NCBI RefSeq assembly: GCF_000523275.1
Contig: NZ_ATHQ01000001.1
Location: 1,061,289-1,125,288, forward strand
DNA: 64,000 nucleotides
Source: Lebetimonas sp. JH292
Lineage (GTDB): Bacteria > Campylobacterota > Campylobacteria > Campylobacterales > Nautiliaceae
Direction: 5' to 3'
In this document: piece by piece, positions 8,481-50,934 of the stretch
How positions within the stretch are numbered: position 1 is the first letter of the stretch
How the letters are laid out: each line of letters opens with the position of its first letter
Made by a program: the position numbers and the translations under genes
The notes under the pieces: model-generated
Databases searched by the model: none
What the model saw: only the letters and a program-made list of their open reading frames with translations
Told to the model about the DNA's origin: nothing

Positions 8481-9242
8481 ATGCTTAAGGTTGAAAATCT
8501 TTTTTTAAAAAAAGGCGATTTTATTTTAAATCAGGTTTCTTTTGATGTAAATAATAAAGAATATGTTGTTATGCTTGGAAAAACAGGAAGCGGGAAAACC
8601 CTGCTTCTTGAATCCATCGCCGGTTTTCACAGAATTGAGGGAAAAATTTATTTTGAAGGCAGGGATATTACGAATTTTCCTCCTGAAAAAAGAAATTTCG
8701 GGTTTTTATATCAGGATTTTCAGCTTTTTAAAAATTTAAATGTTGAAAAAAATATCCGTTTTTCTGAAAAATTTAAAGGAAAAGACAATAAACTGTTTAA
8801 TGATTTAATTAATTTTTTAAATTTAAAGCACCTTTTAAAAAGAAAAATTGTAAATTTAAGCGGAGGTGAAAAACAGAGAATTGCACTTGCAAGGGCAATA
8901 TATTCAAGGCCTAAAATACTGCTTCTGGACGAACCTTTGAGTGCGATTGACCCGACTTTAAGAAATGAAATAATGAAAAATTTAAAACAGCTGCCAAATA
9001 GATACAATATTTCTGTAATTCATGTAACGCATAATTTCAGGGAAGCTTCTTATTTAGCCGATAAAATAGGAATAATTTTAAAAGGGAAACTTTTGCAGTT
9101 TGATGAGAGTAAAAAAGTTTTAAATTCTCCCGATTCTTTGGAAGTTGCCAAATTTCTCGGATTTAAAAATATTTTTGAGCTGTCTTTATTAGGTTTTGAG
9201 AATTCTCATAAATATTTTTCGATTGACCCTAATTTAATTTAA
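8481..9242 (+). CDS. wtpC: ABC transporter ATPase, WtpC-type, C-terminal domain lost by frameshift
   Basis: Second oxyanion-importer ATPase. Walker A GKTGSGKT (about residue 34), Q-loop YQDF, signature LSGGEKQR, Walker B LLLDEP and H-loop HVTHNF are intact, so the nucleotide-binding domain should fold. The frame ends at TAA (9240-9242) just inside the regulatory domain (YFSIDPNLI). The missing MOP/TOBE domain continues immediately in the +1 phase (9238-9453). Removing one T from the TTT at 9238-9240 would join the two. The result is an ATPase of 253 aa instead of about 323. It pairs with WtpB just downstream. Confidence 0.8.
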   Translation: MLKVENLFLKKGDFILNQVSFDVNNKEYVVMLGKTGSGKTLLLESIAGFHRIEGKIYFEGRDITNFPPEKRNFGFLYQDFQLFKNLNVEKNIRFSEKFKGKDNKLFNDLINFLNLKHLLKRKIVNLSGGEKQRIALARAIYSRPKILLLDEPLSAIDPTLRNEIMKNLKQLPNRYNISVIHVTHNFREASYLADKIGIILKGKLLQFDESKKVLNSPDSLEVAKFLGFKNIFELSLLGFENSHKYFSIDPNLI

Positions 9243-9453
9243 TAAACAAAGAGAAAAAAAAGAATATGATTACTGTTTTAAAGGATATATAGATGAAATT
9301 ATGGGTATTACCGACCATTATAAAATTTATGTAAATGTTAATGGGGAAATGTTTTTTATAAAAATATCTAAAAATTATTTTAAAGAACTTGATTTGAAAA
9401 AAGGAGAGCAGGTATTTTTATGTTTTGATAAAAAAGATATTGTATTTATTTAG
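9238..9453 (+). pseudogene. Detached MOP/TOBE domain of the WtpC-type ATPase
   Basis: An uninterrupted frame (phase +1 to the ATPase) encodes about 71 residues, including CFKGYIDEIMG, HYKIYVNVNG and LKKGEQVFLCFDKKDIVFI. The other ATPase in the cluster ends with a comparable strand-rich domain (LIFKASNVHIF). It has no convincing start or ribosome site; its first in-frame ATG is at 9301. It is best read as the C-terminal domain of the preceding gene cut off by a one-base insertion. Sequencing error or programmed frameshifting would look the same. Confidence 0.65.
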
Positions 9454-31919: not shown

Positions 31920-32139
31920 TAATAACCTTTGAAATATTTTTAATATCTTCTAATTTATTACCTGCCGCTTTTAAATTCTGCTCTTTTACCTCTTCTATCA
32001 GTTCGCTTCTTAAAATAGTTTTATTTCTCGGAGCCTGGATTCCTATTTTAACCTGATTTTTATCTATTGAAACTATTACAATTTCAATATCGTCTCCGAT
32101 TTTTATTTTTTCATTTTCTTTTCTTGATATTACTAACAT
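31909..32139 (-). CDS. csrA: Carbon storage regulator CsrA
   Basis: 76-aa RNA-binding translational regulator, starting [37 protein letters not shown], with the R-E-L-I-E-E helix after it. In epsilonproteobacteria it controls flagellin and other mRNAs at ribosome-binding sites. The gene overlaps both neighbours (7 nt with truB, 11 nt with ispE), so its translation may depend on upstream reading, which matters because truB is out of frame here. Confidence 0.96.
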
Positions 32140-32997
32140 AATTCAATCCTGTTTAAGATATATTTTACTTCTTCGTTAATTTCAATAATAGCAAAATATT
32201 TATCATATGTCACAAAATAAATACCGTTTTTTTGAATTTTAAAATCATTTTTATTTAATTTTTTACCGAGTAACAAATTATTTATATCATTTAAATAAAA
32301 ATTTTCTTCTACATTTAAATATTCAAGAGGATTTAATTTTTTTTCGCATTCATAAAAAAATTTTCCTTCATTTACTCTTTCAAGATATGTTAAGCTCCCA
32401 ACAGTTCCTAATTTTTCGGCAATGTCAAATCCTATTGTTCGGATATACGTCCCCTCACTTACACTTGCTTTAAATGTAATAAACGGATGTGAATAATTAA
32501 TTAGCTCTATGTCAAAAATTTCAACTTCTATTTCTTTATCCAAAAACTCTTTTTTTTCACTTGGGACTTGGAACTTGGCTACTTATTTTATATGCCCTAA
32601 TCCCGTTTATTTTTTTTGCGCAGTAACGGGGCGGAGATTGAAATTGCCTGCCTTTGAACGAATTTAAAACTTGTTTTATTTTTTCAATTTCTAATTTTTC
32701 TGTTTTTTGGATTTTTTCTATTTTTTCTATATCAAGGGTGGGGGAATAGGCTCCGAGCAATAACGAAGCAATATATGTTTTTGGAGTTTTTTTTAAAAAT
32801 CTGAACAGTTTTGTATACTGACCCGCGGCAATAATAAGGCTGCCGCATGCAAACGGGTCAAGCGTTCCGGAAAATCCCATTTTTTTGATGCCGTATTTTC
32901 TTTTTAATTGATTTAAAAATTTGTTTGAACTAATAAAACTTGGTTTTTTAGCCACAAACAACAAATTTTTACACTCACTACTCACCATTTTCAACAC
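32133..32997 (-). pseudogene. truB: tRNA pseudouridine-55 synthase TruB, out of frame at a heptad array
   Basis: The N-terminal part (from 32997, or 32988 by the second Met) encodes LLFVAKKPSFISSNKFL and the catalytic GFSGTLDPFACGSL, then NGIRAYKISSQVPSPK and a TGA at 32558-32560. The rest resumes in another frame with KEFLDKEIEVEIFDIE through the PUA-like end at 32133. The break falls in three heptads (CACTTGG, GACTTGG, AACTTGG on the plus strand). Removing one 7-nt unit joins both halves with no stop. So the gene is either phase-off or recently broken. The start codon itself lies in a second heptad array. TruB is not essential in E. coli. Confidence 0.85.
32558..32584. repeat. Heptad array inside truB
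   Basis: Units CACTTGG, GACTTGG, AACTTGG and a partial CTACTT have period 7. The sequence AGTAGCCAAGTTCCAAGT on the minus strand is shared with the array inside cmoB (43017-43044), so the two are copies of one dispersed element. Confidence 0.85.
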
Positions 32998-38103: not shown

Positions 38104-38685
38104 TTATCTAATTATATCAAATTCCTCTATTTCCTTAAATCCCAAAATTGCATTGATCATTGCCATTTTTTTAAAATAAGGCAAATCGTAAATATGAATA
38201 TTTTCTTTTTTTATTAATCCTTTTTCAAGCATCTCCTGCCTTTTTGTGCCTTTTAGCAAAGGATATTTCGGTGTTATCCATTTACTTCCCGTAAAAAAAG
38301 CGAGATTTGAAATGGTGGTATCGGTTATAAGAGAGTTTTTTACTAAAATAAATTCATCAAAATCAATGGAAAATGTAGAATGTAGAATGGAAAATTGTTT
38401 TCTGTTTTTATATTTAAAAGGATAATTGAAATCAATTTCTACAATTTTAAATTTTCTAAAATTTCTTTTTTTTATTGGAAAAACTTCAATATTTCTTATT
38501 CCATCATATGAATATGTTATTCTTACTCTTGCATTATCTAAATCATTAAAATTTAACTTTTCACTTTTAATTTTTAATTTTTCACTATTAAAAAAATGTT
38601 TAAGTGTTTTTTCCATTCTTTTTAGATGATAATTTAAATTTTGAATTTTTCCGTTTTTAACTAAAACTGTTTCAATAAATTCCAT
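38104..38685 (-). CDS. pabC: Aminodeoxychorismate lyase-like aminotransferase class IV (PabC)
   Basis: 193-aa PLP enzyme of fold type IV, probably releasing p-aminobenzoate from aminodeoxychorismate for folate. It begins MEFIETVLVKNGKIQNLNYHLKRM. NSLITDTTISNLAFF and TPKYPLLKGTKRQEML are the class-IV cofactor and substrate blocks. The PabB gene lies 1.6 kb away. Two heptad arrays are embedded in frame, giving repeated peptides SEKLKIK-SEKLNFN near residue 33 and FSILHSTFSI near residue 100. Both sit where the family usually has loops. Confidence 0.8.
   Translation of the reverse strand: MEFIETVLVKNGKIQNLNYHLKRMEKTLKHFFNSEKLKIKSEKLNFNDLDNARVRITYSYDGIRNIEVFPIKKRNFRKFKIVEIDFNYPFKYKNRKQFSILHSTFSIDFDEFILVKNSLITDTTISNLAFFTGSKWITPKYPLLKGTKRQEMLEKGLIKKENIHIYDLPYFKKMAMINAILGFKEIEEFDIIR
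38366..38393. repeat. Heptad array inside pabC (C-terminal half)
   Basis: Four units, ATGGAAA, ATGTAGA, ATGTAGA, ATGGAAA (28 nt), read on the coding strand as TTTCCAT/TCTACAT. They encode a short Phe/Ser/Ile/His-rich stretch in frame. Confidence 0.8.
38555..38589. repeat. Heptad array inside pabC (N-terminal half)
   Basis: Five units, AACTTTT, CACTTTT, AATTTTT, AATTTTT, CACTATT, lie in a row. On the coding strand they give the peptide repeat SEKLKIK/SEKLNFN. The unit flavour matches the rsmD-lipoprotein spacer at 26135. Confidence 0.75.
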
Positions 38686-40261: not shown

Positions 40262-41217
40262 TTAAAGTGGAATGTAAATTTTATTGACTAATTCTTCATA
40301 CTCTTTTTTAGCATCACTGTCAATTGTTATTCCGCCGCCGCTTTTATATATATAGTGAGTAGTGAGTAGTGAATAGTGAGTGGTGAGTTGTGAGTTGTGA
40401 GTAGTGAGTTGTGAGTTGGGTTTTTCAATATAACGAATTATTACGGCGCTCTCAAGAAATGTTTTTTCATCAGTAATCCCAAAAATTCCGGTATAAAAAC
40501 CTCTTTCGTAACCTTCAATCCTTTTAATAATTTCAACGGTTTTTTTCTTTGGTGTTCCGCTTATACTGCCGGCTGGTAAGAGTTTTAAAATCAGCTCAAG
40601 CCAGTTTTTCTGCCAGTTATTTAATGTCGCTTCGATTTCGCTGCTAACCTGCAAGAGTTCTTTTTTCCCGGCTTTTATTTTATCGATAAAACGGAATTTA
40701 TTTACTTTTATATTTTTTCCGACGATTCCCAAATCGTTTCTTAATAAATCCACAACCATGGTATGCTCGGCCATTTCTTTGATATTATTTAAAATCAGCT
40801 TTTTTGCGTTTGGAATATGGGCTTCAATTGTACCTTTCATAGGGTATGTATATATTTTATTGTTTTTTATTTTTATAAATCTTTCAGGAGAGAAACATAC
40901 AAATTTATTTTTAAAATATAATTTAAAAGGGGCTTTTGAGTAATAAAAAATGGTAAGCAGATCCCAATTAGTTTCTATTTTTGTAGGAAAAGTGAGATTT
41001 AATAAATATGTGTTTCCTTTTTTAATTTCTTCAATTACTTCATTGAAAGCTTTTTGATATCTTTTAAAAGAAATAGGGTGTTTTTTAAGATTAATTCTTT
41101 TTTTTCAGGTTTTTTAGGCAGTAATTTAAAATTAGGAAAAGTAAAATAGATATTTTTTAAATTTTTAACTTCATCAATAAAAATATTTCCGTCAAAATCT
41201 ATTAAAAAAAATTTCAT
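40262..41217 (-). pseudogene. pabB: Aminodeoxychorismate synthase component I PabB, out of frame at an A8 tract
   Basis: The start at 41217 encodes MKFFLIDFDG and PKKPEKK, then shifts. From about 41100 the conserved protein continues in another phase: HPISFKRYQKAFNEV, GNTYLLNLTFP, FVCFSPERFIKI, MKGTIEAH, VVDLLRNDLG, LLPAGSISGTPKKKTVEII and KSGGGITIDSD, through 40262. Adding one A to the A8 run (T8 at 41098-41105 on the plus strand) restores a single frame of about 318 aa. Near the C terminus a 63-nt heptad array adds three 7-residue repeats (NSQLTTH, NSQLTTH, YSLLTTH) between YIEKP and YIYKSGGG. It may be phase-variable, mutated or mis-sequenced. Confidence 0.82.
40355..40417. repeat. Nine-unit heptad array inside pabB
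   Basis: Nine tandem GTGANTN units (GTGAGTA, GTGAGTA, GTGAATA, GTGAGTG, GTGAGTT, GTGAGTT, GTGAGTA, GTGAGTT, GTGAGTT) total 63 nt, or 21 codons, so the array is in frame as it stands. It is the longest array in the window. Any change of one or two units would break the conserved C-terminal active-site region. Confidence 0.95.
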
Positions 41218-50845: not shown

Positions 50846-50934
50846 TATTTAATCTCTCCTTTTTTCACTTTACATTTGTCATGCTCACCACCCCGCCGCT
50901 TTGCAACCGGCCGGGCAGGCTTTCACTTTTTTCA
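50846..50934. repeat. spoT/tyrS spacer: heptad-like ends around a GC-rich core
   Basis: The ends read CACTTTA-CATTTGT-CATGCTC and TTTCACTTTTTTCACTATTT, matching the heptad family loosely. The core (about 50886-50920) is strikingly GC-rich against the AT-rich background and has short GCC/GGC complementarity (ACCGGCCGGG). No gene is seen. Confidence 0.55.

Follow-up and report, generated by a model that had tools for sequence, protein, structure and literature searches.

The nine-heptad array inside pabB of the vent bacterium Lebetimonas sp. JH292 appears to be a single stray copy of a dispersed GTGARTD repeat family, facing opposite to the orientation that the family usually takes at gene ends, and it lengthens a surface loop in this folate-synthesis enzyme by about 18 residues. 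The most probable explanation is that a lineage-specific heptad family is kept by purifying selection where it is harmless, with the pabB copy being tolerated in a disordered loop. The features below are given in positions of the window, the whole 64,000-nucleotide stretch of DNA that was analysed.

40262 to about 41101-41105, minus strand: main reading frame of pabB with the array inside, assigned by NF005486, PF00425 and a fold match to PabB/TrpE structures
40328..40342, minus strand: codons for SGGGI (residues 254-258), a conserved chorismate-enzyme motif, invariant in 38 sequences
40353..40418, plus strand: GTGARTD heptad array of 9.1-9.4 units, reading HACTCAC on the coding strand
41035..41217, minus strand: ORF with the pabB start (ATG 41217) and the N-terminal ~45 codons (MKFFLIDFDGNIFIDE...), in a frame that differs from the remainder
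41079..41104, minus strand: A-rich stretch (A8, A6) containing a -1 frameshift, located by nucleotide comparison with the sister species
32559-32582, minus strand: AACTTGG-type heptads in a TruB loop (truB, 32136-32985)

The array and its host gene

The array was called by TRF at 40353-40416 (period 7, 9.1 copies, 89% matches), and its score of 93 is the top score of the tandem arrays in the window. When extended via exact lag-7 matches, it covers 40353-40418 and is, with 66 nt, the longest among the 76 located GTGARTD arrays. On the minus strand, 40355-40417 encodes NSQLTTH NSQLTTH YSLLTTH, flanked by YIEKP and YIYKSGGGITIDSD. The TRF call and this exact translation bear out the nine heptads that had been described in a sequence-only reading of the window. 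The array-bearing gene encodes aminodeoxychorismate synthase component I (PabB), with an NF005486 score of 414.2 bits (cut-off 275) and a PF00425 match of the main frame at 193.8 bits. The top Foldseek matches of the PabB model are the E. coli and B. subtilis PabB structures (prob 1.00, TM 0.71-0.74), and both the GTP and the SGGGI motifs are kept in the alignment of 38 sequences. The only other Chorismate_bind gene of the genome, a 468-residue frame, is presumably TrpE.

The sequence-only reading also held that the repeats had entered the gene without breaking it, which does not stand: pabB in the assembly has a -1 frameshift upstream of the array, near 41079-41104, and does not form a single uninterrupted frame, while truB is broken inside its own heptads. 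In the sister species, pabB is one open frame of 314 residues without interruption, and the frame difference between the two amounts to one base at ~41079-41104. This stretch contains the slippery-type heptamer A_AAA_AAC; the shift may be due to an assembly error, a real mutation or programmed frameshifting. The frameshifts of pabB and truB may both be assembly errors. A frame check of 52 orthologs flagged truB and an ABC transporter ATPase automatically, with pabB as the third case. Compared with the sister species, truB has a net gain of 10 nt, and its frame break falls between the stops that bracket the heptad array; the ABC transporter ATPase gene (8481-9450) has its frame broken at about 9247-9260, near an A8 tract. 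The adjoining ORF at 38104-38685 (minus) also holds heptads, at 38545-38591, which encode SEKLKIKSEKLN.

The PabB loop

The insertion is shown by an alignment of 38 PabB orthologs, 20 of which come from outside Nautiliaceae. The loop between the IRYIE-like and YKSGGG-like blocks has 25 residues in JH292, versus 4-8 residues in 20 of 20 non-Nautiliaceae sequences and 6-7 residues in the short-loop Nautiliaceae. No repeat-free lineage among the 38 aligned orthologs carries a peptide of the same length, and the net gain is ~18 residues or codons, not 21. In an AlphaFold2 model of the main frame (279 residues), the mean pLDDT is 85.5 and residues 233-244 fall below 50; the modelling agrees with the surface loop that had been suggested, as the insert is a predicted disordered loop. 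In the model, it connects strand 223-226 with strand 248-258. The earlier placement of the repeats beside the active-site end is not supported: SGGGI (254-258) lies at the far end of strand 248-258, and the insert lies at the opposite, hairpin-tip end. Judged by this secondary structure, the insert would lie at a hairpin tip, separated from the GGG motif by the length of a strand, and an insert in the active site was rejected on the same grounds. Most likely, the insert is without catalytic consequence.

The array with the GTGARTD unit is absent from the pabB loop of the sister species, where a different heptad is found. Long PabB loops are also present elsewhere in Nautiliaceae, each with unrelated low-complexity DNA, and the repeats in them are as follows.

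L126: TTCTCMA heptads
L122: TTTTCNA-like heptads
L119: AACCCATY octads
L116: ACTTCACM octads
Sister species (G016): AAAATGG-like heptads

By shuffling, a periodicity of 7 or 8 bases was detected in the long loops at p<=0.03 in 9 of 11 and at p<=0.01 in 7 of 11, with units that differ. The loop is a tolerant hot spot that has apparently been colonised independently by differing repeats. A second, N-terminal PabB loop (HPPIHPSTHPP..., just ahead of LKKxPIS) has repeat-encoded inserts in genus g3 (L115, L119, L121, L124). At L124/L013, one assembly has a stretch of Ns in place of the pabB loop, perhaps because assembly failed at the repeat.

The GTGARTD family in the genome and its relatives

The GTGARTDGTGARTDGTGA pattern has 163 matches in the genome (67+96), versus 3 (1+2) for the reversed control; the GTGARTD arrays are not a product of chance, and the tandem 7-nt unit is dispersed over many loci, as in heptamer gene-end repeats. 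The sequence base consisted of stretches around arrays and 522 kb of other stretches, the latter containing 7 arrays of period 7; no other period between 4 and 15 gave more than one, and a Markov control gave none. In total, 76 arrays were read in context, and those that entered the intergenic statistics have three or more near-perfect units. Genes were called mechanically (longest ORF, first ATG), and distances to starts are therefore approximate.

Orientation and position both follow the genes. Arrays between co-directional genes are sense in 54 cases versus antisense in 4 (p 1.6e-12), and 50 of the 54 sense arrays are closer to the upstream stop than to the next ATG (p 1.9e-11). In 42 of 54 cases they begin no more than 12 nt from the upstream stop codon, whereas the next ATG is within 12 nt in only 5. 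The bias towards intergenic positions, with a constant orientation relative to the genes, is likewise that of heptamer gene-end repeats. The array itself contains the stop codon in 22 cases, and TAG stops are found in 23 of 59 array-adjacent genes, compared with 39 of 464 in the background (Fisher p 6e-9). An orientation set by replication direction was rejected, as the full match list and the local GC skew pointed to the direction of the flanking genes. At C1_1011929, the array has the stop codon on one side and a preserved AAGGA on the other, a layout suggesting that it is confined by the ribosome-binding site. A search of the arrays against Rfam gave no family at gathering score.

Three GTGARTD units carry stops in every frame, and antisense HACTCAC carries none. 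Just 4 of the 76 arrays lie well inside genes, although at least 79% of the sequence is coding, and all 4 have HACTCAC as the coding strand, with one of these four in a questionable ORF. The genic arrays are the following.

pabB: the array described above
MurE: 26 nt (~3.7 units), net length unchanged compared with the sister species
Nucleotide-sugar dehydrogenase: 30 nt (~4.3 units), a gain of 12 residues, with CFFQTHNSQLTTHKE where the sister species has FNKD
A questionable ORF of 151 residues

The lengths of 26 nt and 30 nt do not agree with the suggestion that selection keeps the unit number at multiples of three, and such a rule was rejected; only the net indel would have to be a multiple of three. 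Among 276 orthologs, 21 long forms had indels of at least 4 residues; in only 2 of them was 7 the best lag, with half or more of the positions matching, and heptad insertion into genes is therefore rare. The lag-7 match fraction is clearest in pabB (0.70) and reaches 0.49 in the dehydrogenase insert. MurE (G000 C1:765454 and the upstream loop) has two repeat-encoded stretches, of which KLKVKSEKCKV corresponds to QWKMDNGR, from another heptad, in the sister species. For annotation, NSQLTTH-like and SEKLKIK-like peptides should be read as repeat-derived inserts and not as domains.

The GTGARTD pattern is present in 14 of 298 Campylobacteria genomes, with 163 matches in JH292, 25 in the next genome and 0 in the sister species. 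AAAATGG heptads occur in 11 of 14 Nautiliaceae versus 0 of 8 genomes that represent the order's other families. In 96 kb of Nautiliaceae sequence, 6 heptad and 4 octad arrays were found, and 434 kb around pabB in other Campylobacterota-type loci gave no 7-base array above threshold. The Nautilia profundicola genome paper does not mention repeats. At orthologous gene ends in the sister species, which is the one congener compared, AAAATGG-, AAAGTGA- or ATTGATA-type heptads are often found directly behind the same stops. A sister pair with a different heptad at the same sites makes the spread of seven-base repeats in bacteria testable. It is conceivable, though doubtful, that the arrays are stop-anchored modules whose units are swapped wholesale between sisters at the same gene ends, with the loops of PabB, MurE and TruB as landing sites of the unit then in use; gene ends and loops alike would be edited by such dispersal, through template switching or with the help of a transposase.

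A REP-like GC hairpin, GGCCGCTTGNAAAGCGGC, is present in the window at 50895-50912 (minus) and at about 42 places in the genome. Many copies have GTGAG or GTGAA on both sides, and copies often lie directly behind heptad arrays; the hairpin has 0 copies in the sister species and 4 one-mismatch matches in another Nautiliaceae genome (G019). No palindrome was found beside the array at the pabB locus. A second dispersed palindrome, GAGCAAAGCGAATTACGCTCACCTGGCTGCTTGAAAAGCGGCCATGATG, is intergenic at L190 and L170, downstream of CCAAGTT-type 7/8-mers. Three Y1_Tnp genes were located.

L262: C1:926967, resembling REP-associated tyrosine transposases in a weak match (NF047646, 55.6 bits, cut-off 80)
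L261: C5:18218
L260: C1:504339

The hairpins and the Y1_Tnp genes are candidates for the spread of the arrays and thus a lead, with most arrays lacking the hairpin.

Explanations and comparison with known repeats

In the preferred explanation, the GTGARTD tandem family would have expanded in the JH292 lineage, with new arrays arising at or spreading to many sites, possibly by slipped-strand synthesis and short-patch copying. Slippage would lengthen arrays, and new sites would require copying or transposition. Purifying selection would then retain arrays only at harmless sites. Sense arrays, with TAG/TGA in each frame by three units, would persist solely between a stop and the next ribosome-binding site, where they would frequently provide the stop codon themselves. 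The antisense HACTCAC, free of stops and encoding N/Y/H-S-Q/L/P-L-T-T-H, could persist in a gene where the net change is divisible by three and the site is a disordered surface loop. The form of the pabB array would thus follow from the in-frame requirement and the stop-free strand, and its survival from the disordered hairpin tip. The spreading mechanism and the near-neutrality of the arrays are what we infer here.

The anchoring at stop codons could instead reflect function or targeted insertion. A role of the intergenic arrays as functional RNA elements at the ends of genes, such as three-frame termination insulators or protein-binding 3' elements, with the pabB copy as an off-target product, is unlikely. 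The strong sense orientation, the stop anchoring, the array-supplied TAG stops and the heptads behind the same stops in the sister species would all fit such elements, and post-transcriptional roles have been proposed for TAACTGA heptads (MacGregor, PMC4679880). However, the unit is not conserved between the sister species, several orthologous gaps are without an array, no Rfam family matches, and the same pattern is explained by selection against genic stops together with protection of the ribosome-binding site. Spread by REP-associated tyrosine transposases, with the arrays as parts of REP-like elements (the GTGAG-flanked GC hairpin), is quite unlikely. The ~42 hairpin copies versus 0 in the sister species, many of them GTGAG/GTGAA-flanked, and the three Y1_Tnp proteins, one of which is like REP-associated transposases, argue for it; nevertheless, the majority of arrays, including pabB, have no adjoining hairpin, the transposase stays at 55.6 bits under the family cut-off of 80, and other Nautiliaceae have heptads without this hairpin.

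Two further explanations concern the coding copy. As 7 is not divisible by 3, slippage by one unit shifts the frame, and the truB heptad array lies at its frame break; a phase-variation switch in which the gain or loss of one unit toggles pabB is nonetheless very unlikely, since the reading frame runs through the pabB array without a break, the frameshift lies ~660 nt upstream in the A-rich stretch, and PabB and TruB are housekeeping enzymes, which are atypical as contingency genes. That the 25-residue loop was selected for a function, as a contact with a partner or a substrate channel, is hardly credible. Many Nautiliaceae do have long loops at the same place, but the loop sequences are unrelated, of low complexity and periodic at the DNA level, and the loop is predicted to be disordered; several Nautiliaceae, as well as all aligned sequences from outside the family, lack a long one.

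REP elements are palindromes scattered between genes; they have a short conserved tag, a single tetranucleotide, and are associated with Y1_Tnp genes (NF047646, PF01797). The JH292 genome shares such palindromes, a short tag and Y1_Tnp genes, but no palindrome is present at pabB, where the tag is a tandem heptad. Simple-sequence contingency loci, as in phase variation, are short tandem repeats with a unit that is not a multiple of three. The pabB array shares the non-triplet unit; in contrast, most GTGARTD arrays lie outside genes, and there is no sign of switching at pabB.

The closest likeness is to other bacterial heptamers. TAACTGA direct repeats have been described in marine Beggiatoaceae, Cyanobacteria and Bacteroidetes (MacGregor 2015, PMC4679880), with 169 sets that are mainly forward and intergenic and about ten in ORFs, in reverse. 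Both TAACTGA and GTGARTD are heptads with stops in all frames of the forward strand and an intergenic forward preference; some copies of both overlap the upstream stop, and copies in ORFs are mostly reverse, those of TAACTGA being peripheral. The JH292 arrays are not TAACTGA repeats proper, as the unit is GTGARTD and only 5 of 54 end at most 12 nt before the next ATG: GTGARTD is anchored at the upstream stop, whereas TAACTGA ends just ahead of the downstream start. The GTGARTD arrays are also longer, and, unlike in TAACTGA, one coding copy lies in a housekeeping enzyme, within an internal loop. The GGGAATC / GGGGAYT heptamers of Xanthomonas and Nostoc (Rehm et al. 2015, PMC4692102) are, like GTGARTD, dispersed between aligned ORFs, scarce in coding regions and found on the sense strand at most 50 bp behind stop codons; they are G-rich and form G-quadruplexes, whereas GTGARTD has no runs of three G. 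The coding potential of each strand would decide the habitat of such a repeat, placing stop-bearing strands behind stop codons and stop-free strands in disordered loops. This strand logic is already known from TAACTGA and GGGAATC; what is new is the other unit, the tight anchoring at stops, a sister species with other heptads at the same sites, and a housekeeping enzyme's internal loop as a landing site.
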